Notes under the pieces: generated by a model
What the model was told of the DNA's origin: nothing
What the model saw: the letters and a program-made list of their open reading frames with translations, nothing else
Database searches by the model: none
Assembly (NCBI GenBank): GCA_031279875.1
Contig: JAITHS010000137.1
Span: 1 to 29,687, forward strand
DNA: 29,687 bases
Direction: 5' to 3'
Source: Tannerella sp.
Lineage (GTDB): Bacteria > Bacteroidota > Bacteroidia > Bacteroidales > Tannerellaceae
Position numbers and translations under genes: made by a program
Shown: positions 236 through 29,212 of the stretch, in pieces
Layout: every line of letters begins with the position of its first letter
How positions within the stretch are numbered: position 1 is the stretch's first letter

Positions 236-246
236 TTTTAGTAATT
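205..246. repeat. Left inverted repeat flanking the ATPase gene
   Basis: The 42 bases match the reverse complement of 1571-1612 at 39 positions. The repeat includes the stop codon and last two codons of the ATPase gene. The pair encloses almost the entire coding sequence. It could be the end of a mobile cassette or one of two oppositely oriented copies of a palindromic repeat. Confidence 0.75.
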
Positions 247-1542
247 ATTGAGGCAGAAAAGAGCATAAAAGGGGATGGATTTTATGTTATTTTCAAAGCC
301 AAAATGTTTTTGTGAGATACGAATTGCATAAGGCGATTTATATTTTTTGACAAACATTGCCAAACTCGTCGAACGTGTGTGTACCCCCTTTTTTACTTCC
401 ACAGGAACAACGTCTATACCAATTTGCAACACAAAATCGACTTCTGCCGTGTCTTCGCTTTTCCAATAAAAAAGTGGAATTTTTATTGCTGCAAGTTGCT
501 GTGCCACAAAATTTTCCGCCATTCCTCCCATAAAAGTATTGTCCGTTACGCTTGACGAAAGCAACATTTGCGCAGGTAAGCCGGAGTGCATAGTAAGCAT
601 ACCCGTATCGCCCATATAAAGTTTGAAATCGCTCAAATTCTGATATGCTTTTATTGGTATAAAGCCATGTTCAAGTCGCTGATTTTTAAGCGTTATACCT
701 GCCAATAACAGCCACTCAATAGCTTCGCCGAAAAGCGTTGCCGTGCCGCCTTTTTGCACAATTTTATATTGAAACTTTTTATTTTCCTTTGCTAACTGTG
801 TGGGAATAGACTTGTAGCATCCGTAAATTTTTGCCGTAGTAGCAGGTTTTGCATATTTCGACATGTCTGCAATATATTCGTTTAAAATTCTGTTTTGCAA
901 GTCTTTGATAGTCAAAAAACTTTGTTTTTGGCGGAAATCATTGATTACGGCAGGCATTCCGCCAATTATGCAATAATAATTGTATAATTCGAGTGCCTGT
1001 TTGTGCAGAATTTCGGGCATCGGCTTAAATTCTGCAAAGTGTATTTTTATTTCATCGGCCAACATTTCTCTGTCCATTGCCCAAAGAAACTCCTCAAAAT
1101 CAAGTGGAAACATATTAATCTCGTCAATTTTTCCGACAGGGAAAGAGTATTTCTCTCGATTAATCGCAACGCCCAAAAGCGAACCCGCAGCGACAACATA
1201 ATATTGCGGTGCTTGCTCGCAAAAATACTTTAATGAGGTCAAAGCTCGCTCACTCGCCTGAATTTCGTCTAAAAAAAGCAGTGTTTCGCCTTCAATGATT
1301 CTCATATTGGTAGAACTTTCAAGCAGGCGTACAATACGTGCAGGAGAAATGTCGCCTTCAAATATTTGGCGAATATCAGGGTTTGTTTCCAAATTGATAT
1401 AAACGGTATTCGCAAATTCATTTTCGCCAAACTCACTAATACTAAATGTTTTACCTATTTGGCGCGCTCCATTCACAATCAAAGGCATACGCCCCTGTTT
1501 GTTTTTCCATGCCACAAGTTGATTAAAAACTTTTCGTTTCAT
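238..1542 (-). CDS. AAA+ ATPase with DUF4143-type C-terminal domain
   Basis: This 434-residue protein is a P-loop ATPase of the common ArchATPase-like type with a DUF4143 region. Walker A is GARQIGKT at residues 25-32, and Walker B is LLFLDEIQ with D92 and E93. The C-terminus has a PD-(D/E)xK-like pattern (AEVDFVL followed by VPVEVKKG near residues 367-387), as is usual in this family. Its length is normal and it appears intact. The cellular role of the family is not established. The gene stands alone, facing away from the PUL, and has its own promoter upstream (-33 TTTG, 19-nt spacer, -7 TAATTTTG). It is bracketed by inverted repeats at 205-246 and 1571-1612, which suggests it moved as a unit. 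No role in glycan use is implied. Confidence 0.9.
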   Translation of the reverse strand: MKRKVFNQLVAWKNKQGRMPLIVNGARQIGKTFSISEFGENEFANTVYINLETNPDIRQIFEGDISPARIVRLLESSTNMRIIEGETLLFLDEIQASERALTSLKYFCEQAPQYYVVAAGSLLGVAINREKYSFPVGKIDEINMFPLDFEEFLWAMDREMLADEIKIHFAEFKPMPEILHKQALELYNYYCIIGGMPAVINDFRQKQSFLTIKDLQNRILNEYIADMSKYAKPATTAKIYGCYKSIPTQLAKENKKFQYKIVQKGGTATLFGEAIEWLLLAGITLKNQRLEHGFIPIKAYQNLSDFKLYMGDTGMLTMHSGLPAQMLLSSSVTDNTFMGGMAENFVAQQLAAIKIPLFYWKSEDTAEVDFVLQIGIDVVPVEVKKGVHTRSTSLAMFVKKYKSPYAIRISQKHFGFENNIKSIPFYALFCLNNY

Positions 1543-9747: not shown

Positions 9748-9768
9748 GCAGAAAGCAGAAAGCAGAAG
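9748..9768. repeat. Three tandem 7-bp units (GCAGAAA)
   Basis: Two GCAGAAA units and a third ending in G lead directly into the left arm of the long hairpin. The same 7-bp units precede the second hairpin copy at 28952-28972, so this microsatellite belongs to the dispersed compound repeat. Confidence 0.7.
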
Positions 9769-9871
9769 GTACCACGTCATTGCGAGGAACGAAGCAATCC
9801 AGGAATACAGGAAGTAATCCGGAAGGAAAAGAACGCTGGATTGCTTCGTTTCTCGCAATGACGTGGTACCT
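9767..9871. repeat. Dispersed long-hairpin repeat, copy 1
   Basis: Positions 9767-9801 and 9837-9871 are 35-bp inverted arms with one mismatch; a further G-C pair at 9802/9836 extends the stem. The loop is about 33 nt. Arms and loop both recur at 28979-29067, and a single arm recurs at 15891-15925. The core (CATTGCGAGGAACGAAGC) is of a type I have seen widely dispersed in bacterial genomes and often mistranslated as small proteins. It looks like a MITE- or REP-like element. In mRNA it would form a very stable stem between the lipoprotein genes and the enzyme genes. Confidence 0.85.
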
Positions 9872-10046: not shown

Positions 10047-12974
10047 ATGAAACATCTTTGTCTTACTTTGCTGATAGCAGCATCATTAACAACTACTGTA
10101 ACTGCTGCCGACCGTTTCCTTGTCGGAACGGCAAAAATCAATATCACACCGCCTAAACCCAAGTATCCGGTGCATGATTCAATCTTCGCTCGCAGCCTCA
10201 TCATCGAAGCGGGCGGTGTTCGCATCGCTTTCGTTGCGCTCGACCTTGGAGGATACACAAACATCCCGCTTGCCGAAGCGTTAAAAAAACAGTTTGACCT
10301 GACGGAAATTTATTTCTGTCCGCAGCACACACATTCGTCGGAGCGCGCTCCTAACGAATGGCTCAACGTCAGGATAACCGAAGTGATGCAACAGGCAAGC
10401 GAAGGAATGTTTGAAGCCGTCGTCTCCGGCGGACACAGATATTTCCCGCAGTTAAGTTTCAACCGTCTCATACTGCGTGAAGACGGTCGCGCACGCGAAT
10501 CGTGGCTCGGCGACGAACACTATCGCGCCGTCAACCCAGAACGCATCCCGCACGGGCCGGTTGACAATGCCGTCGGCATCATTAAGTTTGACGACATATC
10601 AGGCAAAACTCGCGCCGTAATCATGAACTATGCCTGCCACCCCGACGTGGCTTGGAATAATTTCGAGATTTCGGGCGATTATGTCGGATACGCCACCAAA
10701 TATACCGAAGAAGCCTTTGACAATCAGCTCAATTGTCTCTTTGTGCAAGGTGGAGGCGGCAATCAGGCGCCGCTCTTCAAAGACGGCGGACGACAAAGCC
10801 CCGACGACCCGCGTCCGTCGAACTACGACCTGATAGACCGAATGGGTAAGTTGCTCTCCATCGAAGCCGTCAAACTCACTAACGAACTATATCCCAACCC
10901 CCACGACCGCGCTGATATTAAGGTGAAAACCGATTCGCTGTTCTTCACCGGACGCTTCGACAAGTCGCTCAACGTTAACGTTCACTTTTCCGTCATAACG
11001 CTCAACAACCGCTATGTCATAGCCACTGTCCCCGGCGAGCCGTTTATCAAGTTCCAGATAGACTGGAAGCGCGAATTTCAACCCTACGGACTTGTACCGT
11101 TTCTGTTCGGATATACTTGGAACGGCGGCAAATGGCCTGTTTATTTGCCCGACATACGCTCTTCTGCCTACGGCGGATATGGCGCCGACCACGGACCCGA
11201 CTTGATTGAAATAGGAGCAGGTGAAAAAATCATGCTACGGCAATTGGAAAATTATTATCATCTGACGAAAGTCTATAAAGAAGATATTGTTTCTTCTCAA
11301 CCTTCTCAACCTTCTCAACCTTCTCAACCGCGTATTGTCGCCAATCCGATGAACCTCAACTATCGTTTTGCCGTCAAAGACAACTCTACGAGCCGTCGCG
11401 AAGCGGCCGACCCCGTCTGCGAATATTTCAAAGGAAAATATTACCTTTTCGCCTCAAAATCAGGCGGATATTGGACTTCGCCCGACCTCGCCGAGTGGAC
11501 TTACATCCCCTGTAAAACGATTGACCTTATCGAACAGTATGCGCCTACCGTGCTTGTTATGGATGATGCGATGTACTATATCAGCTCCGGTAATCCCAAA
11601 ATCTACAAATCAACAGATCCCTCACGCGACGAATGGGTTGACATCAACGCAAAATTTCAATTCCAACTTACAGGCAACACCGACCCCTGCTTCTTTCGCG
11701 ACGACGACGGCAAAGTTTACATCTACTGGGGATGTTCCGACAAAGACCCGATTATCGGCGTCGAAGTTGACCCCACAGACGGTTTTAAGGTTATCGGCGA
11801 AGCAAAAATACTCATTACACACAACTACCTCAAATACGGCTGGGAAGAGAAAGGGCCTACCAACAATCTCGGAAAAGACGGCTACAACGAAGGCCCCTGC
11901 ATGTTGAAGTACAAAGGCAAATACTACCTTCAATACGCCGCTCCGGGTACCGAAGTGCGCGTTTACGGCGATGGTATCTATACGTCCGACAGCCCGTTAG
12001 GGCCTTACGTTTATGAGGAAAGCAACCCGTTTTCGTTCAAACCGGGAGGGTTTATCGGCGGCGCAGGACACGGTCATACTTTTAAAGATAAATACGGCAA
12101 CTTCTGGCATGTGGCGAGCATGACTATCTCCGTTCGACATATTTTTGAACGGCGTCTGGGACTATTTCCGGTCTATTTTACCGACGATAACAAAATTGCG
12201 GAACATACCGTAATGACAGACCACCCGTTTGAAATTCCTACTAAAAAGATTGATTTTCAAAAGAATGACTTGTCGTTGGGATGGAACATACTCTCTTTTG
12301 ACAAGCCTGCGACGGCATCGTCATCTTTACCGAATTTTGAAGCCCTACTTGCCAACGACGAAAAGGTCGAAACGTGGTGGTCGGCGGCAACAGGCAACAA
12401 AGGTGAATGGTGGCAGGTGGACTTGGGTAAAGCAATGGAAGTAAGCGCATTACAGGTCAATTTCGCTGACAACGATTTTAATCTTGCCGCTGATTCGCAT
12501 CTGTCGTATTTCTATTATCAATATTCGGTAGAAGGCTCAACCGACGGTCGGTCGTGGACGCAAATCGTTGACCGTAAGGATAATGTGACGGATGCGCCGC
12601 ATGAACTTATCACATTCGCTAAACCGCTGGTAATCAGATATTTACGTATTATTAATCAGCGCGACATAAGCAAATACGGAAAATTTTCGCTTTTTGACTT
12701 CCGCGTTTTCGGACACGGCAAAGGCAACAAACCTGCTTCCGTCCGTAATTTTAAGGCTGTCCGCAACAATGCCGACGCACGACGTTTCCGCTTTACATGG
12801 GACAAAGCCGACAACGCCGTCGGATACATAATTCGCTGGGGTACAGACAAAAACAGCCTCCGTAACGCCGTCATGGTGATGGGAGCAAACAACTACGAAG
12901 CCGGTTTCTTTAACCGCGATTCAAAATATTATTTCTCAATAGAGTCATTCAACGAAAACGGCATAAAAAAATGA
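10047..12974 (+). CDS. Ceramidase-like domain fused to GH43, F5/8 type C and Fn3-like domains
   Basis: This 975-residue secreted protein has a signal peptide ending near residue 20 (TVTA). Residues 22-410 resemble the neutral/alkaline ceramidase N-terminal family. HTHS with H94 and H96, and ACHPD with H198, fit its zinc ligands. However, the usual GDVSPN-type nucleophile loop is replaced by QGGGGNQAP (234-242), so ceramidase activity is doubtful. A linker of SQP repeats (about 416-428) leads to a GH43 five-blade propeller, about 435-735. The probable GH43 triad is D455 (AADP), D546 (TDP) and E615 (EGP). An F5/8 type C (CBM32-like) module (about 743-895) and an Fn3-like tail follow. GH43 enzymes are mostly arabinofuranosidases, xylosidases or galactanases. 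The stop overlaps the GH3 start by 4 nt (ATGA), suggesting translational coupling. Confidence 0.82.
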   Translation: MKHLCLTLLIAASLTTTVTAADRFLVGTAKINITPPKPKYPVHDSIFARSLIIEAGGVRIAFVALDLGGYTNIPLAEALKKQFDLTEIYFCPQHTHSSERAPNEWLNVRITEVMQQASEGMFEAVVSGGHRYFPQLSFNRLILREDGRARESWLGDEHYRAVNPERIPHGPVDNAVGIIKFDDISGKTRAVIMNYACHPDVAWNNFEISGDYVGYATKYTEEAFDNQLNCLFVQGGGGNQAPLFKDGGRQSPDDPRPSNYDLIDRMGKLLSIEAVKLTNELYPNPHDRADIKVKTDSLFFTGRFDKSLNVNVHFSVITLNNRYVIATVPGEPFIKFQIDWKREFQPYGLVPFLFGYTWNGGKWPVYLPDIRSSAYGGYGADHGPDLIEIGAGEKIMLRQLENYYHLTKVYKEDIVSSQPSQPSQPSQPRIVANPMNLNYRFAVKDNSTSRREAADPVCEYFKGKYYLFASKSGGYWTSPDLAEWTYIPCKTIDLIEQYAPTVLVMDDAMYYISSGNPKIYKSTDPSRDEWVDINAKFQFQLTGNTDPCFFRDDDGKVYIYWGCSDKDPIIGVEVDPTDGFKVIGEAKILITHNYLKYGWEEKGPTNNLGKDGYNEGPCMLKYKGKYYLQYAAPGTEVRVYGDGIYTSDSPLGPYVYEESNPFSFKPGGFIGGAGHGHTFKDKYGNFWHVASMTISVRHIFERRLGLFPVYFTDDNKIAEHTVMTDHPFEIPTKKIDFQKNDLSLGWNILSFDKPATASSSLPNFEALLANDEKVETWWSAATGNKGEWWQVDLGKAMEVSALQVNFADNDFNLAADSHLSYFYYQYSVEGSTDGRSWTQIVDRKDNVTDAPHELITFAKPLVIRYLRIINQRDISKYGKFSLFDFRVFGHGKGNKPASVRNFKAVRNNADARRFRFTWDKADNAVGYIIRWGTDKNSLRNAVMVMGANNYEAGFFNRDSKYYFSIESFNENGIKK
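11294..11329 (+). repeat. Four perfect 9-bp tandem repeats in the interdomain linker
   Basis: The unit TTCTCAACC occurs four times without a mismatch and encodes the SQP linker between the ceramidase-like and GH43 domains. Each unit is three codons, so gain or loss of copies would change linker length without breaking the frame. Confidence 0.9.
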
Positions 12975-15829
12975 AACATTTATTTTTTAACATCATCTTC
13001 CTTTTTATAATATCAATTGCTTCATTATCAGCTCAAAAAAAAGGAATAACATCAGTTGCGGCAACGACGGCGCTCAACCCCGGCACTGTGCTTTTAGACG
13101 GCAATCCGAAAACCGTCCTGACGCTACAATCCGAAGATCTCAAAGCAGAGCAGCGGTTGTCGTTTACTCTACAAACGCCCTCTAATGTCGAAAGCGTAGC
13201 AATTGATATTAAGGGCATTACAAAAGAAATGCTGCAAAAATGGCTCGACATCTATGTTACTTACGACCCAATGAATCCGGGCGAAGCAGTCAAATACGGT
13301 CTTTCCGGTAATTTTACACTGAAATTTCCGCCTCAATACGGCGCTCATGTCATCCTGATTTTCAAAGGCGGAGTTGTTACCAAACAACTGTCTATAAGCG
13401 AAATAGAGTTAGGATTTGAGAAAACCGCGACGGAAACCGCCTCTGCCGTCGACACGCCTACGGATAAGCCTTGGATGAACGCTCAACTGCCTGTTGATGA
13501 GCGCGTTGAACTGCTGCTTGCCGTTATGACGCCCGCCGACAAGATGGAACTCATCCGCGAAGGGTGGGGCATTCCGGGCATTCCCAAACTCGGCATACCC
13601 GACATCAAAAAAGTAGAAGCGGTGCATGGCTTTTCTTACGGCAGCGGAGCGACGATTTTTCCGCAGGCAATAGCGCTCGGTGCGGCTTGGAACAAACGGC
13701 TTGCGGAGAAAGTTGCCGAAACGGTCGGCGATGAAACCAGAGTTGCAGGCGCTATTCAGGCATGGTCGCCCGTACTCGACGTTGCGCAGGACGCACGCTG
13801 GGGAAGATGCGAGGAAACTTTCGGTGAAGACCCGATACTCGTTTCGGAGATTGGCGGAGCGTGGATAAAAGGCTATCAATCAAAAGGTTTGATGACTACT
13901 CCCAAACATTTTGCCATTCACGGCGCACCGCTCGGCGGCCGAGATTCTCACGACGTAGGTCTGTCGGAGAGAGAGATACGCGAAGTTCATCTCGTTCCTT
14001 TCCGCCACGTGATACGCAAATATAACTGTCAATCGTTGATGATGGCGTATTCCGATTATCTCGGTGTGCCGGTAGCCAAAAGCGCCGAACTGCTTATCGG
14101 CATCCTGCGCGAAGAATGGGGCTTTAACGGCTTCATTGTCAGCGATTGCGGCGCTATCGGCAACCTCACGGCACGCAAACATTACACTGCCGAAAATTTA
14201 GTCGAAGCCGCCAATCAATCGCTCGCCGCCGGTATTGCTACCAATTGCGGCAATACATATAATAATAAGGATGTCATAGAAGCGGCAAAAAACGGTGGTA
14301 TCGATATGCAAAACCTTGATATGGTGTGCCGTACACTGCTTTCAACCATGCTTCGTAACGGTCTGTTTGAAAATAATCCGTCGAAAGCGCTCGACTGGAA
14401 CAAAATTTACCCCGGATGGCAATCGCCCGAACATCTGGCTGTTGCACGCGAAGCGGCACGTCAGTCTATCGTCCTTTTAGAAAATAAAAACAACATCTTG
14501 CCGATAGTTAAAACCACAGGAACAATTGCCGTTATCGGGCCGGGCGCCGACGACTTGCAACCCGGCGACTACTCCCCAAAATTGCAGGAAGGGCAGTTGA
14601 AATCTGTCCTTACAGGCATCAAAGCCGCTGTCGGCGCTCAAACAAAAATCATCTACGAAAAAGGGTGTGAATTTACTGCTTCCGACAATTACGAGGGCGA
14701 AAAAGCGCGTCAGGCAGCGCTCAAAGCCGATGTCGTAGTGATGGTTCTTGGCGACTGCACGCAAGGAAACCGCGTTAATTACAACACAACAGGCGAAAAT
14801 CACGACTATGCTACCCTCGAACTGCCGGGCAAACAGGGCGAACTGCTGCGCGAAGTTTGCGCCACAGGCAAGCCCGTAGTGCTGGTAATGCAAATCGGAC
14901 GTCCCTACAACCTGACTTACGCCGCCGAACATTGCGCTGCGATGCTCGTTAACTGGCTGCCCGGTCAGGAAGGCGGATATGCCACCGCCGATGTTTTGTT
15001 CGGCGATTACAATCCCGCAGGTCGCCTGCCGATGACCTTTCCGCGACATGTAGGACAATTGCCTCATTATTACAATTTTAAAACATCAGGACGACGTTAT
15101 GAATACTCTGATTTGGAATATTATCCTCTTTATCGCTTCGGATACGGGATTAGTTATACGAAATTTGAATATTCCAACCTGCAAACATCGGTTAATTCGG
15201 ACGGCAACGTTACAATCAAGGCGGATGTGAAAAATACCGGTTCGCGACAGGGCGATGAAGTTGTGCAACTGTATCTTACCGACATGTACGCTTCGGTTAA
15301 AACGCGGGTTATGGAACTCAAAGATTTTGAGCGTATTACGTTGGCTGCGGGCGAGTCTGAAACAGTTGCTTTCACGTTATCGCCTTATCAATTGTCGCTG
15401 CTGAACGACAAAATGGACAGGGTTGTTGAGCCGGGCGACTTCAAGATTTGTGTCGGTGGGCGCAGTCCGTCATATAAAGCGGGCGACCGCATTAAGGAGA
15501 GTGTCGGTTACGGCGACAAATCCGAAGGAGTAAGCGCAATACTCAATTACAAAGGCTCTTACGCCGCCGATTTCAATTTAACATTGTCGGGGACAGAAGA
15601 AAAACTTGCCGACGGTTCCAAAAAAGTCTTTGTGAAAGTTAAAAATACCGGCAATTTGATGGACACCGGCAAACTTTATCTCTATGCCGACGGCGTCCGC
15701 ACCAACGAAATACACCACTATGAACTCGCCGCAGGAGAAGAAAAACAAATTGCTTTTTTTCTTCCTGTGTCGCAAACAAAACAGTTTTCTTTAACAAGTA
15801 AATATAGACAAATAACAATTAATTTGTAA
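12971..15829 (+). CDS. GH3 family beta-glycosidase
   Basis: This 952-residue secreted enzyme probably removes beta-linked glucose, xylose or similar residues from the non-reducing end. The signal peptide is 1-21 (SLSA). Residues 22-155 form an extra beta-sandwich-like domain before the catalytic part. The GH3 N-terminal barrel (about 175-420) has the KH motif (K312, H313 in TTPKHF) and the nucleophile D392 in IVSDCGAI. The GH3 C-terminal domain starts near 502 (VLLENKNNILPI). An Fn3-like domain follows (about 740-830), and an added beta-rich tail ends the protein at 952. The N- and C-terminal extensions make it longer than most GH3s. It overlaps the upstream gene by 4 nt and is followed 20 nt later by the beta-helix/GH2 gene. 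The exact substrate is not predictable. Confidence 0.92.
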   Translation: MKHLFFNIIFLFIISIASLSAQKKGITSVAATTALNPGTVLLDGNPKTVLTLQSEDLKAEQRLSFTLQTPSNVESVAIDIKGITKEMLQKWLDIYVTYDPMNPGEAVKYGLSGNFTLKFPPQYGAHVILIFKGGVVTKQLSISEIELGFEKTATETASAVDTPTDKPWMNAQLPVDERVELLLAVMTPADKMELIREGWGIPGIPKLGIPDIKKVEAVHGFSYGSGATIFPQAIALGAAWNKRLAEKVAETVGDETRVAGAIQAWSPVLDVAQDARWGRCEETFGEDPILVSEIGGAWIKGYQSKGLMTTPKHFAIHGAPLGGRDSHDVGLSEREIREVHLVPFRHVIRKYNCQSLMMAYSDYLGVPVAKSAELLIGILREEWGFNGFIVSDCGAIGNLTARKHYTAENLVEAANQSLAAGIATNCGNTYNNKDVIEAAKNGGIDMQNLDMVCRTLLSTMLRNGLFENNPSKALDWNKIYPGWQSPEHLAVAREAARQSIVLLENKNNILPIVKTTGTIAVIGPGADDLQPGDYSPKLQEGQLKSVLTGIKAAVGAQTKIIYEKGCEFTASDNYEGEKARQAALKADVVVMVLGDCTQGNRVNYNTTGENHDYATLELPGKQGELLREVCATGKPVVLVMQIGRPYNLTYAAEHCAAMLVNWLPGQEGGYATADVLFGDYNPAGRLPMTFPRHVGQLPHYYNFKTSGRRYEYSDLEYYPLYRFGYGISYTKFEYSNLQTSVNSDGNVTIKADVKNTGSRQGDEVVQLYLTDMYASVKTRVMELKDFERITLAAGESETVAFTLSPYQLSLLNDKMDRVVEPGDFKICVGGRSPSYKAGDRIKESVGYGDKSEGVSAILNYKGSYAADFNLTLSGTEEKLADGSKKVFVKVKNTGNLMDTGKLYLYADGVRTNEIHHYELAAGEEKQIAFFLPVSQTKQFSLTSKYRQITINL

Positions 15830-15849: not shown

Positions 15850-18800
15850 ATGAAACGTTTTTCTTATTTGATGACGGTTTTTTTATTTTGCTGGATTGCT
15901 TCGTGCCTCGCAATGACGTGGTACCGTCATCCCATTGCTGCTTTTGCACAATCCATAAAGACCATTTATCCAACAAAAGATTGGGCTATATCCGATTTTG
16001 TAGTAACAGACGCTAAATACGGCGCAAAAGCTCAGGCAGGATTTGATAACAGAGCGGCTTTTCAGGCGGCTATTGATGCGGCATACAACGCAGGCGGCGG
16101 CGTAGTCTATATTCCTGCCGGCAATTATGAGTTTCGCAGTACGCAAACCGGTAGCCGAAATGTCAGAGTGCGTCGAGGCAGTGATGAAACACGCAAATCA
16201 TATAATTACGAATATGTTTTGCAACTTCCCGCAGGAGTACAGCTACGTGGCGATTGGGCAAATCCGGAGTTGAATAACGGAAAAGTTCTCGGCACTATCC
16301 TTGAAGTAAGGGTAGGAAAGGATTCTCCCAATTATGACGGAACGGTCGAAAGTTGGTGGAACGACAGTCAGGCCGACAACGCACTGCGCACTACGCATAC
16401 CAGCATAGCCGACAGGTTTATAGAGATGAGAGAAGGGACAGGAGTAACGAATTTGTCGATTTGGTATCCGGAGCAAACTATCAAAGATATTAAGCCATAT
16501 CCATGGACATTATATCAAACATCAGGAGATTGCGCAACAGTTGAAAACGTTACTCTTGTAAATGCGTACAACGGTTTTTATTCTGCTCCGAGCGAACTGC
16601 ATTATGTGATGAACAGTTATATGACGGCTCTCAAAACAGGAATAGAAGTTCATATCTGTACCGACATCGGACGAATTGAAAATGTCAGGATAAACCCCAA
16701 ATATTGGGCTGATTCGGGGCTTCCGGGTTCACCGTCGCTCAATGAAATTACTGCTTATACGAAAGCTAACGGTACAGGTTTTCAAATGCACCGTTCCGAT
16801 TGGGAATATGTATCTTATTTGTATGTTTCAGGTTATAAAAACGGTATGTGGATAGGTAAAGAACCGGGTTATAGCGACGCCCCGAATGCGCAGTTTACCG
16901 AAATACACATCAATAACTGCGATACAGGTTTATATGTGCAAGCTGTTAACCCATACGGTTTGCTTTTTTCCAATTCTACTTTCGGCTCTAATGCCGACGG
17001 TATTGCCGCTTATTTCTTCAATGATTTCACAACTTCAACTCAATTTAACGGAGTAGATTTCACGGGACCTGTCGTAAGCGACGGCAGCGATGGCGTTATC
17101 TCGTTTGAAAGTTGCACATTCGACAAATACAACGAATATGCGCTTAAAATAAATAACGGTAACGTATTGATTACTCAATCTGATTTTAAACAACCTGTCG
17201 GTCATGTCTTTCTGGGTGCTAACGTGAATACGCTTAAATCAATGAACTCAGGATATAAACGCAAATTGGAAATCAAAAACAACGGCAAGACGGCAAAAGT
17301 TGAGATTCTTACGGACGATAAATACCTGTTTGAGCCTATTACTAAAAATATTAAAACAAATATTGATGTACACCCAAGACCGGCGTCAAACAATGTGTTG
17401 AAAGTAGATTTGCCGCGATCTGTCGGATTTAATAACGATGCTCCGACCGAAGATGTCTCGGCTAAATTGCAGGACGCATTAAATGCTGTTAAGGCGTCCG
17501 GCGGTGGAACGGTTTATCTGTCGGCAGGCAGATATTTAGTCGATAATCCCATTACCATTCCTTCGGGAGTTGAATTGAGAGGAACATGGGACGTACAACA
17601 TCATACCCAAAGCGGTGGTACCGCGATATTTACAAATTATAGCGGAGGTGCCGCAGGTGAAAAAGGTTCTTCGCTTATACAGATCGAATCGCAGGCCGGC
17701 ATCAGAGGGTTGAACATTTTACAGTTTAATATTGCTACCGGCGAATATAACAATAATAACCCACGACCTACTCCGTTCCTGATACAGGGGAAAGGGCCGA
17801 ATGTATATATAATTAATGTAACCATACCGGCAGGCGATAAAGGTATAGACCTCGCTTCTTACAACACAAGCGGACATTACGTTGATTATTTCGCCGGTGT
17901 AGTAGCAAGAGCAGGTATTTGGGTTGGAGGAGGCGCCGAAGGTGGGTTTATCAGGAATATGCAGTTCAATCCTCACTACGGCACACGACTGCCGCAAAAA
18001 GGACAAGGGTATCCGAATGTGCCTTTGATGAGATACGTGCAAGCTCATTGCAGTCAGTTGAAATTTGCCGATGTTAAAAAACAAACTGTTTTTAACAATT
18101 TTGTTTATGGCTCTGTTTATGGCATTCATTTTTTGAAAGACGCAATAACAGGTAACTACCCCGGAGAAATGACCGTCGTAGGGCATGGTTCGGACGGATG
18201 CACCTATTCTTTATTTGTTGAAGACGCCGATGAAAATACTAAAATAATTGCTATCAACTCCGAATTGGTTAATACGAAAATTGCAGGACAAGCCGTTAGA
18301 TCTTACGTTTTGATGGGTAACGAAATAAATACGAAAAAGGTTCATCCTAACGCTAAATTAATACTGTATAATACTGCTTTTTGGGGTAGCCCTACGGTGG
18401 GCGGTATAGTAAACAACGGTATTGTGCGGTATCAACAGGCTAATTTTCAGCGCTCCGGCGCTACAGGCGTAGATGTAAGAGGAGGAAAAGCTTTTGTATA
18501 TTCTTCTTTTTTTGCACAAAATGTGTACACTGATGCCGACGAAAATAATGCGTATGCCAAGTTGCATGAGACAGGCAACTCAATAGAACTCACCAATAAT
18601 TATTACCTGTCGGGACTGAAAAATAATAGCGCTAAACCGGACGGAATCTATGGCTCCGATATAGTCGCAAGCAATTTAAACAGGCTCTATTATCCACATA
18701 TTTTTGCGCCGTCGGAAGGATATGTCGGCAAGGTTGAGAAGCCGTTGCGGAAAGAGATTTGCCTTAACGGACGGTGGGATTTTCAGCCTGTCGCGCTGCC

Positions 18801-21798
18801 GCAAGACTACCGTCAGGGCAAAGGCATCGCTCCCGAACTTCCGTTGCCGCAAGCCGACAAATGGGACAAAACACAAATCAAAATCCCATCGCCGTGGAAT
18901 ATTAACTCCTTTGCTAACAGAGAATTAGAAGGCCCCGACCACCGCAACTATCCGTCTTATCCCAAAGAATGGGACGGCGTTAAAATGGCGTGGATGCGCA
19001 AATCGGTACAAATACCTATCGACTGGGGCGGCAACCGCTTAATGCTTCATTTTGAGGCTGTTGCAGGACATACGCAGGTGTTGGTAAACGGCAAAAAGGC
19101 GGCTGAAAACTTCGACCTCTTCCTGCCTTTCGACGTCGATATTACCGACATCGTCAAAGCCGGTGAGCAAGCCGAAATCCTTGTAGGAGTGCGCAGTCAA
19201 GCGCTTTTTGAGGACAATTCTACCAAAGGTCGTCGTATTGTGCCTGCCGGTTCGATGTGGGGGTATCATGTTAATGGCATCTGGCAGGATGTTTATCTGA
19301 TTGCCGTTCCTCAAATTAGCATTAACAACGTATATATCAAGCCGTTAGTGTCGCAACGCAAACTCGAACTGGAATTGACGGTCAGCAATTTTAGCGGTAA
19401 ACCGGCCGAATTGTTGCTCGGCGGTGATATACGTAAATGGCTCAACAATGCCGGTACTACCGTCAATTCTGCGCCTGTTCCCGACTGGAAACTTGCCTCG
19501 ACGCCTGCCGTCGTCATACCGGCCCAAAAGTTGAAACTGCCTGTCGGAGAAACTAAAACGACACTTTCTCTTGATATAGCCGACAACACGCTCGAACTAT
19601 GGTCGCCGGAATATCCAAATCTCTACGGACTGTCTCTACAAATCTCTACAAAAAAATCGCAACCTGTTGATATTAAGTACGAAAGGTTCGGATGGCGTGA
19701 GTGGACTTTTGAGGGAACGACGCAGTTGCTTAACGGCAAACCGTATTCTCTCAAAGGCGATTCGTGGCATTTTATGGGCGTTCCGCAACTGACACGACGT
19801 TATGCTTACGCATGGTTTAAAGCCTTGAAAGACGCCAACGCCAATGCTGTACGCCCTCACGCTCAAATATATCCGCAGTTTTATTTCGACGTAGCCGACG
19901 AGATGGGCATCTGCATTCTCGCCGAGACTGCAAACTGGGCGAGCGACGGCGGCCCGAAGATGGATTCGCCGACTTTCTGGGAAAACTCCAAAGACCACCT
20001 GCGACGAATGGTCGTGCGCGACCGCAACCACCCTTCGGTGTTTGGTTGGAGCGTCAGCAACGAAAACAAACCTGTTATCCTTCACGTCTTTAACAAACCC
20101 GAATGGATGGATTATCAAAAGCAGGCATGGCGCGACTGGGTCGCTATCGTGCGTGAATACGATACTACCCGACCGTGGATTTCGAGCGACGGCGAAGAAG
20201 ACGGAGAAGGGATATTGCCCTCAACGATAGGTCATTACGGTGATGAAAATTCGCTCAAAAACTGGGCTGCGCTCGGTAAACCGTGGGGCGTCGGCGAAAC
20301 AAGCATGGCGTATTACGGCACGCCCGAACAGGTAGCGAAGTTTAACGGCGAACGTGCTTACGAATCAATGGAAGGACGCATGGAAGGGCTTGCTTACGAG
20401 TGTTACCGCCTTATCCGGCAGCAGCGCGAAGCAGGAGCGTCTTACTCGTCGGTCTTCAACATCGCGTGGTATGCTTTGCAGCCGCTGCCGTTCGGAAAAC
20501 GTAATTTGACTGCGACGCCTTCGCTCGACGACGGGATATGGTTTGGCGAATATGTTGAAAATCAGACCGGTATCCAGCCCGAACGCATCGGCGCCTATTG
20601 CTCTACTTTCAACCCGGGATATGACCCTACGTTGCCTCTCTACCGCACATGGCCGATGTTTGATGCCATCAAAGCCGCTAACGAAGGCAACAGCCCCGCA
20701 TGGTCGCAATGGGCTGCTTTGCCGGTTAAAACGCTGATTGCCAAGCTCGACAAGCCTGCAAAACAATATTCGGAAATAACGTTTTTCGGAGCGTCCGACA
20801 GTCGTGTCAAGCAAATATTTGAAAATCAGGCAGTTGCTTTGGTGCATGGTGGAAAAGTTCAAACTAACAGAGTTCAAACTAACAGCAAGAAACTAATCAT
20901 CATTGACGGCACATACACTCTCACGGAAGCCGAACGGAAAGCAATAAAACAGCAAACCGACAACGGCGCCGACATTTGGCTTTGGTCGCCTAAACCGGAA
21001 ACTGCCGCTTCATACGCTTCTTTCCTGCCTCAACCGCTGCGACTGGAAGAACGCAAGGCTTCATCTTTTATCCCCGAACACAAGTCTTGGCTGAAAAATA
21101 CCGTTAATTCCGATTTCTATTTCTCTGAAATTCAGACCGAAAACGCATCCGAATATGTCATTGCAGGAATGCTTGCCGATGAAGGCGAAATCCTCTTGCG
21201 AGCCTGCAAAACCAACTGGCGTCGCTGGAACAAACGCCCCGAAGAATTGAAAACAGCCGCCGTACTGCGCAGCGAAAACGAAGCCTCTACGCATGATGCT
21301 GTGTTTATCAAATATCACGCCGGTAATTATACGCTGTATATCAGTACGTTAGATGATTTTACAACATCCGAAAAAGGATATAAAACGCTTCGTAAAATAC
21401 TGCACAGTGCCGGTATTGCTTCAACCGAAAGCAACGATAGCAGTGCCGACATCAAACTTATTGACAACGATGGCAACATACTTCTTAACAAACTGCTAAT
21501 CAACGTTATCGATAATCGACGCTACTACAATCTTTGGGTTTACAGCCCCCGTCCGCTCGACGACCTGCTCATCGAACCCGATATGCCGAAATTGGAAATC
21601 GTAACCGAAGAACGTATCGAAATTCGCCTCAACAACAAGCGTTTACAGTCATTAAAAGACCTGCCGCTCAAACAGGGCTGGAACAAATTCGACATCACCG
21701 TTCCAAACAACTCTGCCGCCGCTGCCAAACCTGTCCGCTTTTCCAGTTCTAACCGACCGGAATATATAAAAGTCTTACAAACAGCATTATACAGATGA
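15850..21798 (+). CDS. Twin beta-helix (pectate-lyase-3/GH55-like) fused to GH2 glycosidase
   Basis: This 1982-residue protein joins two enzymes. The N-terminal 950 residues hold two parallel beta-helix units, each opening with a motif like AAFQAAIDAAYNAGGGVVYI (about 70) or a degenerate version (ALNAVKASGGGTVYL, about 533). Two such units in tandem resemble GH55 and Pectate_lyase_3 proteins. From about 965 (LRKEICLNGRWDF) a GH2 begins: sugar-binding domain, Ig-like domain and barrel. The acid/base is E1405 in SVSNEN and the nucleophile is probably E1483 in GVGET. About 300 more residues follow. GH2 members are beta-galactosidases, glucuronidases or mannosidases. GC content jumps from about 32% to over 60% in samples either side of the junction, which suggests a fusion. 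The signal region contains one arm of the dispersed repeat and has both a lipobox (IASC, C19) and a possible signal peptidase I site (AFA before Q34). Confidence 0.87.
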   Translation: MKRFSYLMTVFLFCWIASCLAMTWYRHPIAAFAQSIKTIYPTKDWAISDFVVTDAKYGAKAQAGFDNRAAFQAAIDAAYNAGGGVVYIPAGNYEFRSTQTGSRNVRVRRGSDETRKSYNYEYVLQLPAGVQLRGDWANPELNNGKVLGTILEVRVGKDSPNYDGTVESWWNDSQADNALRTTHTSIADRFIEMREGTGVTNLSIWYPEQTIKDIKPYPWTLYQTSGDCATVENVTLVNAYNGFYSAPSELHYVMNSYMTALKTGIEVHICTDIGRIENVRINPKYWADSGLPGSPSLNEITAYTKANGTGFQMHRSDWEYVSYLYVSGYKNGMWIGKEPGYSDAPNAQFTEIHINNCDTGLYVQAVNPYGLLFSNSTFGSNADGIAAYFFNDFTTSTQFNGVDFTGPVVSDGSDGVISFESCTFDKYNEYALKINNGNVLITQSDFKQPVGHVFLGANVNTLKSMNSGYKRKLEIKNNGKTAKVEILTDDKYLFEPITKNIKTNIDVHPRPASNNVLKVDLPRSVGFNNDAPTEDVSAKLQDALNAVKASGGGTVYLSAGRYLVDNPITIPSGVELRGTWDVQHHTQSGGTAIFTNYSGGAAGEKGSSLIQIESQAGIRGLNILQFNIATGEYNNNNPRPTPFLIQGKGPNVYIINVTIPAGDKGIDLASYNTSGHYVDYFAGVVARAGIWVGGGAEGGFIRNMQFNPHYGTRLPQKGQGYPNVPLMRYVQAHCSQLKFADVKKQTVFNNFVYGSVYGIHFLKDAITGNYPGEMTVVGHGSDGCTYSLFVEDADENTKIIAINSELVNTKIAGQAVRSYVLMGNEINTKKVHPNAKLILYNTAFWGSPTVGGIVNNGIVRYQQANFQRSGATGVDVRGGKAFVYSSFFAQNVYTDADENNAYAKLHETGNSIELTNNYYLSGLKNNSAKPDGIYGSDIVASNLNRLYYPHIFAPSEGYVGKVEKPLRKEICLNGRWDFQPVALPQDYRQGKGIAPELPLPQADKWDKTQIKIPSPWNINSFANRELEGPDHRNYPSYPKEWDGVKMAWMRKSVQIPIDWGGNRLMLHFEAVAGHTQVLVNGKKAAENFDLFLPFDVDITDIVKAGEQAEILVGVRSQALFEDNSTKGRRIVPAGSMWGYHVNGIWQDVYLIAVPQISINNVYIKPLVSQRKLELELTVSNFSGKPAELLLGGDIRKWLNNAGTTVNSAPVPDWKLASTPAVVIPAQKLKLPVGETKTTLSLDIADNTLELWSPEYPNLYGLSLQISTKKSQPVDIKYERFGWREWTFEGTTQLLNGKPYSLKGDSWHFMGVPQLTRRYAYAWFKALKDANANAVRPHAQIYPQFYFDVADEMGICILAETANWASDGGPKMDSPTFWENSKDHLRRMVVRDRNHPSVFGWSVSNENKPVILHVFNKPEWMDYQKQAWRDWVAIVREYDTTRPWISSDGEEDGEGILPSTIGHYGDENSLKNWAALGKPWGVGETSMAYYGTPEQVAKFNGERAYESMEGRMEGLAYECYRLIRQQREAGASYSSVFNIAWYALQPLPFGKRNLTATPSLDDGIWFGEYVENQTGIQPERIGAYCSTFNPGYDPTLPLYRTWPMFDAIKAANEGNSPAWSQWAALPVKTLIAKLDKPAKQYSEITFFGASDSRVKQIFENQAVALVHGGKVQTNRVQTNSKKLIIIDGTYTLTEAERKAIKQQTDNGADIWLWSPKPETAASYASFLPQPLRLEERKASSFIPEHKSWLKNTVNSDFYFSEIQTENASEYVIAGMLADEGEILLRACKTNWRRWNKRPEELKTAAVLRSENEASTHDAVFIKYHAGNYTLYISTLDDFTTSEKGYKTLRKILHSAGIASTESNDSSADIKLIDNDGNILLNKLLINVIDNRRYYNLWVYSPRPLDDLLIEPDMPKLEIVTEERIEIRLNNKRLQSLKDLPLKQGWNKFDITVPNNSAAAAKPVRFSSSNRPEYIKVLQTALYR
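15870..15931. repeat. 9-bp inverted repeat around the hairpin-arm insert
   Basis: GATGACGGT at 15870-15878 and its exact reverse complement at 15923-15931 enclose most of the repeat-derived stretch inside the signal-peptide codons. The right copy overlaps the last bases of the arm. It may be chance or part of how the segment arose. Confidence 0.45.
15891..15925 (+). repeat. Single arm of the dispersed hairpin repeat inside a coding sequence
   Basis: These 35 bases match the right arm of copy 1 (9836-9870) at 33 positions, and the first 28 match the right arm of copy 2 (29040-29067) at 27. The left arm and loop are absent. The stretch is translated in frame as WIASCLAMTWY, within the signal peptide of the beta-helix/GH2 protein. 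Confidence 0.88.
20858..20887 (+). repeat. Two-copy 15-bp tandem repeat in the GH2 C-terminal region
   Basis: GTTCAAACTAACAGA and GTTCAAACTAACAGC lie side by side and encode VQTNR-VQTNS. The duplication adds five residues in frame in a region outside the catalytic barrel. Confidence 0.7.
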
Positions 21799-26707: not shown

Positions 26708-28951
26708 ATGAAACATTTAATTATCTTTTTTTGCGCGGCAACGTTAGTCGCATGTCAAAACCAAAATTGCTCAACCAGCTCGTCGAAAAAGCAGCCCGTT
26801 GATTATGTTAACCCTTACATGGGTAACATCAGCCACCTGCTCGTGCCGACATATCCTACCGTGCATCTGCCTAACAGCATGTTGCGCGTTTATCCCGAAC
26901 GCGGCGATTACACAACCGACAAGATCAGAGGTCTTCCGGTTGTCGTTACAAGTCATCGCGGCAGCAGCGCTTTCAGTATCAGTCCGTTAACTATAACCGA
27001 CGACAAGACCGAACTTAAACCTGTCATCAATTATTCTTACGATAACGAAAAAATAACCCCATATCGCTATTCCGTTTATCTTGATGAGGCTGATATTCAA
27101 GTAGATTATGCACCGTCGGAACGTTCGGGCGTTTATAACATTACATTTCCGAATAAAAATAATAATGTTCTGATTATCAACACTCGCAACGGCAAAATAG
27201 AGACCGACGGAACGACTGTTTCCGGTGAGCAGTTTATCAACCGCGACACCCGCGTATTTCTCTACCTCGAAACCGACTTGAGACCTCTCAAAACCGAAGA
27301 AATCAACACGCAAGAGCGTAGCAGAAACAAAGTCATAGTACTGACATTCAACGAAAAAGACGTCAAAATCAGATACGGCGTCTCGTTTATCAGCGCAGAG
27401 CAGGCGAAAATTAATCTCCAAAACGAAATCAAGACTTATGACGTTGATGCAATAGCTCAAAAAGGACGCGAAATATGGAATAATGCGCTCGGCAAAATAG
27501 AAGTTGAGGGCGGCTCCGACAACGATAAGACCGTTTTCTACACTTCGCTATACCGTGTCTATGAGCGTATGATCAATATCTCTGAATACGGAAATTATTA
27601 CAGCGCCACAGATAATCAGATACATAGCGACGAGGGCAGACCGTTTTACACCGACGACTGGATTTGGGATACTTACCGCGCCGCTCACCCTTTAAGAGTG
27701 CTGATAGAGCCTGATAAAGAGACTGATATGATACGTTCTTATATCCGTATGGCGCAGCAGAGCGCGGACGGCTGGATGCCGACGTTCCCCGAAATAACAG
27801 GAGACTCGCATCGCATGAACGGCAATCATGCCGTCAGCGTTATTCAAGGTGCTTACATTAAGGGTTTGCGCGATTTTGACCTCGAAGCCGCATTCAAAGC
27901 CTGCAAAGGGGCGCTGACCGAAAAATCGCTCCTCCCATGGGTCAAAGTGCCTAATACCGAACTCGACGTTATTTATCACGAAAAAGGTTACTATCCATCT
28001 CTGTATGAGGGCGAAACGGAATATATCAAAGAGGTAAATCTCGGCGAAAAACGTCAAACTGTGGCAGTAACCCTCGCCGCCTGCTACGATTTCTGGTGCA
28101 TCGCACAAATAGCCCGACAACTTGGTAAAAATGATGATTATCAATATTTTATGAACGGATCCTATAATTATCGCAATATTTATAATCGGGAGACAGCCTT
28201 TTTTCACCCCAAAGACCGCGACGGCAATTTTATTCAACCGTTTGATTATAAGTTTTCCGGCGGTCAGGGCGCACGCGATTATTACGACGAAAACAACGCC
28301 TGGACATACCGCTGGGACGTGCCTCATAACCCCGCCGACCTTATCAGCCTGATGGGTTCGCCGGAAAATTTTGCCGCTAACCTCGACAACACTTTTGCCG
28401 AATCTCTGGGCACAAGTAAGTTTCAGTTTTATTCCCAACTGCCCGACCAAACCGGCAATGTAGGGCAGTTCTCGATGGCTAACGAGCCGTCGCTCCACAT
28501 TCCCTACCTCTACAACTACGCTTCACAGCCGTGGAAGACCCAGAAACGCATCCGCACGCTACTACGACAGTGGTTTCGTAACGACCTCATGGGCGTGCCG
28601 GGCGACGAAGACGGCGGCGGCCTCTCTGCTTTCGTAGTCTTTTCCGCTATGGGCTTCTATCCCGTAAACCCCGCCTCGCCGAATTATTGCATCGGCAGCC
28701 CTATTTTCAACAAAGTAAAAATTCATTTAGCCAACGGCAAAACCTTTGAAATTGAAGCCCTTAACTGCTCCGATGACAACAAATACATTCAGTCTGCCAC
28801 CCTCAACGGCGCCGAATGGAACAAATCATGGTTTTCACACGACGCCATCGCCAACGGCGGCAAACTGACCCTCCAAATGAGCCACAAAGCCAACCGCCGC
28901 TGGGGTAATGCCACCACCCCTCCGCCTCCGTCGGCAGAAAAAGTAGAATAG
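26708..28951 (+). CDS. GH92 family alpha-mannosidase-like lipoprotein
   Basis: This 747-residue protein belongs to GH92, calcium-dependent inverting exo-alpha-mannosidases. The signal peptide ends at Cys16 (TLVAC), so it is a lipoprotein. The N-terminal beta-sandwich opens with DYVNPYMGN. The catalytic domain shows TDDWIWDTYRAAHP, the probable acid E528 in DENNAWTYRWDVP, and the acidic pair D633/D635 in GDEDGGG. Most GH92s have GNDDxG at the last site, so this is a variant. The substrate could be alpha-mannosides, but the divergence leaves room for another alpha-linked sugar. The C-terminus ends in a proline-rich tail (TTPPPPSAEKVE), and the stop codon directly abuts the dispersed repeat. It is the last gene of the PUL operon. 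Confidence 0.9.
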   Translation: MKHLIIFFCAATLVACQNQNCSTSSSKKQPVDYVNPYMGNISHLLVPTYPTVHLPNSMLRVYPERGDYTTDKIRGLPVVVTSHRGSSAFSISPLTITDDKTELKPVINYSYDNEKITPYRYSVYLDEADIQVDYAPSERSGVYNITFPNKNNNVLIINTRNGKIETDGTTVSGEQFINRDTRVFLYLETDLRPLKTEEINTQERSRNKVIVLTFNEKDVKIRYGVSFISAEQAKINLQNEIKTYDVDAIAQKGREIWNNALGKIEVEGGSDNDKTVFYTSLYRVYERMINISEYGNYYSATDNQIHSDEGRPFYTDDWIWDTYRAAHPLRVLIEPDKETDMIRSYIRMAQQSADGWMPTFPEITGDSHRMNGNHAVSVIQGAYIKGLRDFDLEAAFKACKGALTEKSLLPWVKVPNTELDVIYHEKGYYPSLYEGETEYIKEVNLGEKRQTVAVTLAACYDFWCIAQIARQLGKNDDYQYFMNGSYNYRNIYNRETAFFHPKDRDGNFIQPFDYKFSGGQGARDYYDENNAWTYRWDVPHNPADLISLMGSPENFAANLDNTFAESLGTSKFQFYSQLPDQTGNVGQFSMANEPSLHIPYLYNYASQPWKTQKRIRTLLRQWFRNDLMGVPGDEDGGGLSAFVVFSAMGFYPVNPASPNYCIGSPIFNKVKIHLANGKTFEIEALNCSDDNKYIQSATLNGAEWNKSWFSHDAIANGGKLTLQMSHKANRRWGNATTPPPPSAEKVE

Positions 28952-28972
28952 GCAGAAAGCAGAAAGCAGAAA
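28952..28972. repeat. Three tandem 7-bp units (GCAGAAA)
   Basis: Three perfect GCAGAAA units start directly after the GH92 stop codon and run into the left arm of hairpin copy 2. A fourth unit occurs at 28934-28940 inside the last GH92 codons, hinting that the repeat has shaped the end of the gene. Confidence 0.75.
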
Positions 28973-28978
28973 GTACCA

Positions 28979-29067
28979 CGTCATTGCGAGGAACGAAGCA
29001 ATCCAGAATACAGGAAGTAATCCGGAAGGAAAAGGCACGCTGGATTGCTTCGTTCCTCGCAATGACG
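28979..29067. repeat. Dispersed long-hairpin repeat, copy 2
   Basis: Positions 28979-29006 and 29040-29067 are perfect 28-bp inverted arms with a 33-nt loop. Arms and loop closely match copy 1 at 9767-9871. It lies 27 nt after the GH92 stop codon and could serve as the 3'-end structure of the PUL transcript. Beyond the right arm the sequence differs from copy 1 and instead matches the fragment at 139-159. Confidence 0.85.
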
Positions 29068-29128
29068 AATGCCTTGTACGTCATTGGTAGGGTACGAAGC
29101 GACTTTATGGACAGATACCAAATAATAT

Positions 29129-29189
29129 GCAAACATAATGTAAACAATATGTAAACATAATGTAAACATAATGTAAACATAATGTAAAT
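29129..29189. repeat. 11-bp tandem repeat array
   Basis: About five units of GTAAACATAAT, one of them variant, run head to tail. The period is close to one helical turn. The array is AT-rich and lies in the 366-bp gap 28952-29317, upstream of the final gene. It may be a simple microsatellite or a phased binding region. Confidence 0.8.
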
Positions 29190-29212
29190 AATTCCCCTCG
29201 TCCCCTCGTTTC

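Follow-up and report, generated by a model that had tools for sequence, protein, structure and literature searches.

The window, by which we mean the whole stretch of 29,687 nucleotides analysed here, carries a large plus-strand ORF whose product begins with a putative export signal (Table 1). This ORF starts with the ATG at 15850, the first ATG, GTG or TTG past a stop codon located nine codons upstream; later in-frame ATGs are found at M8 (15871) and at M22 (15913), the latter within the short repeat that is the subject of this analysis. A large ORF that looks GH3-like by eye (12971-15829) stops 20 nt upstream of 15850. Elsewhere in the window, an ORF that looks ATPase-like by eye (238-1542, minus strand) is flanked by a 42-nt inverted repeat (205-246 and 1571-1612, 93% complementary), arranged as in a small mobile cassette.

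Table 1. Features discussed in the text, in window coordinates
Feature	Position	Strand	Remarks
1982-aa ORF	15850..21798	+	export signal, two Pect-lyase_RHGA_epim stretches, GH2 domains (ORF list; Pfam)
Solitary REP-like unit	15891..15925	-	codes on the plus strand: end of C14 to start of R26
Lipobox-like I16-A17-S18-C19	15895..15906	+	encoded by the repeat
Candidate signal peptidase I site A31-F32-A33/Q34	15940..15951	+	by eye; P0001 has ALAQS at the corresponding position
9-nt inverted repeat around the unit	15870..15931		GATGACGGT (15870-15878) / ACCGTCATC (15923-15931); unexplained
Inverted dimer of the REP-like unit	9767..9871		arms of 36 nt, 97% complementary, 33 nt between them
Second inverted dimer of the REP-like unit	28973..29067		

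The sequence of the solitary unit is CTGGATTGCTTCGTGCCTCGCAATGACGTGGTACC on the plus strand and GGTACCACGTCATTGCGAGGCACGAAGCAATCCAG on the minus strand. Its 30-nt core (15892-15921) is also found at 9772-9801 (minus), 9837-9866 (plus) and 28976-29005 (minus), with one or two mismatches each, and gave zero matches in 100 dinucleotide shuffles of the window. The initial annotation had reported that 33 of its 35 positions match the right arm of a first full copy (9836-9870); when we recounted we obtained the same figure, and the identity rises to 34/35 against the reverse complement of the left arm. It had also read the repeat in frame inside the export signal, and this reading holds: C19 is encoded by the codon 15904-15906, in MKRFSYLMTVFLFC-WIASCLAMTWYR-HPIAAFAQS. 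As it had stated too, both full dimers of the window read IASF where the solitary copy reads IASC. The first dimer is predicted to fold as one single long hairpin (-69.9 kcal/mol), with 0/200 shuffles as good. The second is adjoined by a tandem 11-nt repeat, AAACATAATGT (29120-29196), and is spanned by a minus-strand ORF of 125 aa (28803-29180; VIARNEAIQ ... LDCFVPRND), which is probably no real gene.

We also looked at the immediate surroundings of the solitary unit. When its 6-nt overlap into the unit is counted, the 9-nt inverted repeat has a length reached by only 2 of 1000 random window places; scored without the overlap, the site gives 6, and 10 other solitary copies tested in this way give 3 to 7. 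Nine of 200 shuffles fold as well as the RNA of 15850-15960. There is weak evidence that this inverted repeat is more than chance. We also considered whether a decayed further copy lies next to the repeat and rejected this: in each of four comparisons, between 205 and 1835 of 2000 shuffles reached the local-alignment score of the flanks.

The unit belongs to a family that is abundant in this genome (2.79 Mb in 410 contigs, about 80% complete). By searching a 25-nt core with up to 3 mismatches we found 214 copies, 105 forward and 109 reverse; the reversed core, used as a control at the same threshold, gave no match genome-wide. The anatomy of the unit was read from 125 distinct copies of the 214, taken from the window and from fetched stretches. 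A neighbour lies at most 130 nt away in 111 of them, mostly in inverted orientation and with the tags outward at 40-44, 60-63 or 71-72 nt, and 14 copies are solitary, 15891-15925 included. C precedes GTC in 121/121 copies with both flanks (GTC itself is part of the search pattern), and behind AATCC the tail has A in 95/121 and then G in 119/121, so that it is mostly CCAG. The variable codon of the unit encodes Phe in 79 of the 125 copies and Tyr in 33; a Cys is encoded by 7 copies, among them the one at 15891-15925, and 6 encode other residues. The letters of this codon are GAA in 72, AAA in 7, GTA in 33, GCA in 7 and others in 6.

When 2 mismatches were allowed, the unit was detected in 26/61 genomes, all of the window's genus (its own and 25 of 36 further ones), and in 0/24 genomes from other families of the order; within the genus the copy number per genome varies from 0 to about 200. 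At a threshold of 1 mismatch it is found in 25/123 genomes of the family, distributed over 2/16 genera, and one genome of the second genus (G071) contains 199 copies. Such a patchy distribution suggests bursts and, together with the copy number, points to a unit that has probably been mobile. A single match to Y1_Tnp was found in the genome, as far as this is complete (about 80%). It corresponds to an ORF of 180 aa, and in the 4000 nt read at this place, on a contig that begins 141 nt before the ORF, a search allowing 4 mismatches found no unit. In a REPtron, where a RAYT mobilises the REPs, units would flank the Y1 transposase gene.

REPs with a CGTC tag, some of them inside ORFs, were described by Di Nocera, De Gregorio and Rocco in 2013 (PMC3733652). 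As described there, they share several properties with our unit: the CGTC tag and a CCA-type tail, frequent inverted dimers (theirs with 20-100-bp spacers), Bacteroidetes among the host phyla, some units in frame within genes, and no dedicated transposase. Indeed, the copies that we read have the CGTC tag, a short tail and mostly the form of inverted dimers. The stem of 8-9 bp with a loop of 4-5 nt is, however, not seen in the single unit: the fold of 27 nt gives five pairs (AUUGC/GCAAU) and a 10-nt loop, with 85/200 shuffles as good, its first two pairs being A-U as in the published description. Because the 8-9-bp stem is absent in the fold, we call the unit REP-like and not a CGTC REP; the family resembles the REPs of PMC3733652 as their text describes them.

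Other known elements are also related to this case. The Rickettsia palindromic elements (Ogata 2000, as described in parts of PMC2229807 and PMC3733652) are inserted in frame inside conserved genes, and PMC3733652 counts RPE-4 and RPE-6 among the CGTC repeats. As summarized in PMC2229807, they have in common with our unit that they are palindromic, in frame and tolerated by the protein; the likeness is one of description, and their hosts are Alphaproteobacteria, unlike the host of our unit. A signal peptide built by a MITE has already been published (PMC2759123). In that report, the element measures 168 bp, lies at the extreme N-terminus of a putative protein of 144 aa and has no lipobox, whereas the unit described here has 35 nt and sits in the export signal of an enzyme that is large and has many homologues. 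Signal peptides and lipoboxes are not mentioned in the part of PMC3733652 that was consulted, no REP-made lipobox was found in the titles and abstracts of the open literature searched, and the same literature yielded no paper with the sequence letters of the unit. Intragenic repeats and a repeat-built signal peptide are already known kinds, and this case adds one more.

To compare the export signal with those of related proteins, we used the first 939 residues as query and considered candidates whose length was 0.55-1.75 times that of the query. Of those listed, the best 120 homologues have 915-1005 aa, with no GH2 domain listed. When the N-termini were aligned, a comparison proposed by the initial annotation, we observed that the repeat peptide is shared by 0/120 of these homologues; N-terminal residues like those of the window in a homologue lacking the repeat, which would have spoken against the initial annotation, were thus sought among them without success. 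The closest two among them, P0121 (86%) and P0122 (83%), have signals without the repeat and without Cys, starting with MYKKSVFFIVLFFLSFVSLWA/RS and MNKKFISPIVFIFIAFSNLLA/QS respectively (cuts by eye); the N-terminus of P0121 matches locus L055, from a Bacteroidales MAG. In a tree built from 60 of the 120 listed homologues plus the window protein, the latter is joined with P0121 and P0122 with an SH-aLRT of 100.

Removal of 36 nt leaves a signal of 21 residues, MKRFSYLMTVFLFC followed directly by HPIAAFA, equal in length to those of P0121 and P0122 (cuts by eye). Behind the repeat, AQSIKTIYPTKDW is common to the window and P0001, and P0001 has ALAQSIKTIYPTKDW at the position of the window's AFAQSIKTIYPTKDW; since this homologue has a counterpart, the stretch behind the repeat is old. 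The pectate-lyase-like part, fused to GH2 in the window ORF, is in P0001 fused behind a GH3-type part instead. We tried to read the ancestral DNA off the closest relative, L055, which was impossible: DNA homology begins only at 15954, so that the empty site cannot be placed exactly. In addition, the window is without about four residues that are present just after the cut in P0121 and P0122. Taken with the late beginning of the L055 homology, these missing residues make a replacement instead of a clean insertion possible.

It is likely, in our opinion, that a 35-36-nt unit of the CGTC-tagged REP-like family landed in frame in a Sec signal peptide of the ordinary type, where it now separates the hydrophobic core from the cleavage region, and that the signal would thus have gained about 12 residues. 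The in-frame position in an intact ORF of 1982 aa with Pfam domains counts for this explanation, as does the existence of a genome-wide family of 214 copies. Since the unit encodes in this frame the mildly hydrophobic WIAS[F/Y/C]LAMTWY, the signal would remain usable and the change would be tolerated; this copy, being of the Cys-coding type, also carries the lipobox-like IASC. That the repeat forms part of the export signal of the enzyme is well supported.

What the repeat does to the mature end of the protein is a separate question. A cut by signal peptidase I at AFA/Q has, in our estimate, about an even chance; this site had been proposed as a competitor of the lipobox and, judged by eye, it is still plausible next to the repeat. 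The initial annotation had further proposed that the repeat created a lipid attachment site at C19. One part of this proposal stands, namely that the repeat supplied IASC, as the Cys codon is a minority variant of the repeat (7/125 copies); either a Cys variant landed or a single base changed afterwards. The other part, lipidation itself, we can retain only tentatively and at clearly less than even chances. It would mean that Lgt modifies C19, that LspA cuts before it and that a secreted enzyme was turned by the repeat into a lipoprotein held in a membrane.

IASC fits the PROSITE-type lipobox rule. For comparison, we used 57 lipobox-type N-termini from Bacteroidota loci, which were picked by rule and not by experiment and were scored by leave-one-out; 27 Firmicutes, Planctomycetes, Pontiella and other loci were left out. 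By this measure positions -3 to -1 of C19 are ordinary, with 19/57 reference N-termini scoring no better, and residue 19 is the commonest place of the Cys in the reference set (13/56), a Cys that P0121 and P0122 do not have. On the other hand, Trp at -4 occurs in 0/57, and owing to this Trp the -4 to -1 score of the window lies under those of all 57 references. The segment from +1 to +6 also scores low: 7/57 references score as low or lower, and only 1/57 is, like the window, free of every D/E/K/R/N/Q/S/G. In an earlier, self-scored set, the surroundings of C19 were below all 56 references. Lipidation also has to be weighed against the candidate signal peptidase I site and against the fact that 15/120 listed homologues have a lipobox-like motif without the repeat (within 45 residues, where 32/120 have any Cys). 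The family therefore gains or loses such motifs independently of the repeat. Elsewhere on the tree the lipobox forms are scattered, and FVSC occurs at residue 19 in G008, a genus-mate, without a repeat. It is possible that the repeat re-anchors the enzyme, as far as the N-terminal sequence can tell.

The longer hydrophobic stretch might instead act as an uncleaved signal anchor or be cut elsewhere, for example behind SCLA, an outcome that we regard as unlikely. The run without D/E/K/R/H/N/Q/P has 22 residues in the window, whereas among the 120 listed homologues its median is 12 and its maximum 19; the window's run also exceeds that of every one of the 57 lipobox-type N-termini, so it could hinder cleavage. 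However, this stretch includes W, T, Y and S, the 7-residue means drop from 2.8 to 0 so that its second half is moderately hydrophobic, and R-H-P followed by IAAFA resembles a normal cleavage region. Finally, translation that begins behind or inside the repeat, which would then be a leader element outside the protein, seems very improbable to us: the unit does contain an ATG (15913) and PMC3733652 cautions that REPs at N-termini may in many cases escape translation, but an M22 start would leave MTWYRHPIAAFAQ, which judged from its sequence is without the hydrophobic core that most listed homologues have, and the 13 codons ahead of the repeat look like the start of a signal.

The presence of the unit in frame is not confined to this enzyme. 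We drew a gene-blind sample consisting of 65 sites in the window's genome (G000), 17 copies in G016, 8 in G020 and 5 in G024. The QueA protein of the window's genome (contig C173, L151:6446-7789; Pfam Queuosine_synth) contains an in-frame pair of units, about 36-40 extra residues; this piece is absent from 11/11 aligned relatives, and most other close QueA matches listed split into two parts around it. An ORF with a FecR domain (contig C157, L147:1277-2503, minus strand) also runs through units, as does a sulfatase ORF in its C-terminal tail (contig C198, L156:1812-3476, minus strand).

In the genus-mate G016 we read every one of the 17 copies found. A TolC-type protein encoded there (Pfam OEP) starts MRKRILYI-GIASYLAMT, with the unit in its export signal, and the 10 relatives read have different, repeat-free N-termini. 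The same genome encodes a lipoprotein (database twin P0241, named DUF4249 domain-containing) with the unit ahead of its lipobox and the Cys at 37; among 101 records scored by a simple motif (P0241 included) the median Cys position is 18, and 6/101 have it at 35 or later. Two other N-termini of G016, L173 and L279, are unit cases with ambiguous starts and were left out of the firm count. By a targeted search we also found, in the genus-mate G036, a PL8 lyase (contig C218, L222:1491-3923) whose signal region contains three units in tandem (LDCFVPRND), whereas its sole close relative found, L257 (69%), has no units; this case was left out of the sampled count. No unit in an export signal was seen among the 8 copies of G020 and the 5 of G024.

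Among the sampled units that lie in genes, three are supported in export signals (the window, the TolC-type protein and the DUF4249-type lipoprotein) and seven lie elsewhere in long ORFs, the latter, QueA apart, resting on ORF length. By a crude rule, signals are encoded by 1.9% of the DNA sampled from G000, or 2.2% when only coding DNA is counted. With in-gene units spread evenly across coding DNA, the probability of at least 3/10 lying in signals would be 0.0011, a figure that depends on this rough rule and on a question asked post hoc. The straightforward interpretation is that an insertion is better tolerated in a signal than in a folded domain. A more far-reaching proposal, which we consider doubtful, is that export signals are in this genus a preferred or unusually permissive landing place: one frame of the unit would give a ready-made hydrophobic core (WIAS[F/Y/C]LAMTW), a minority variant would add a lipobox, and the repeat would recurrently reshuffle signals and occasionally the anchoring of proteins. 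The pattern of in-signal units is worth a survey across the genus.

For annotation, the unit explains odd peptides such as WIASFLAMT, LDCFVPRND and VIARNEAIQ in predicted proteins. If units keep entering signals in frame, the genus would offer a series of natural experiments that show how much change a signal peptide can bear, and their recurrence there would provide a one-step route from a secreted to a cell-bound enzyme. In the case of a polysaccharide-degrading enzyme such as this one, anchoring, if it occurs, would decide whether the products are kept or shared.
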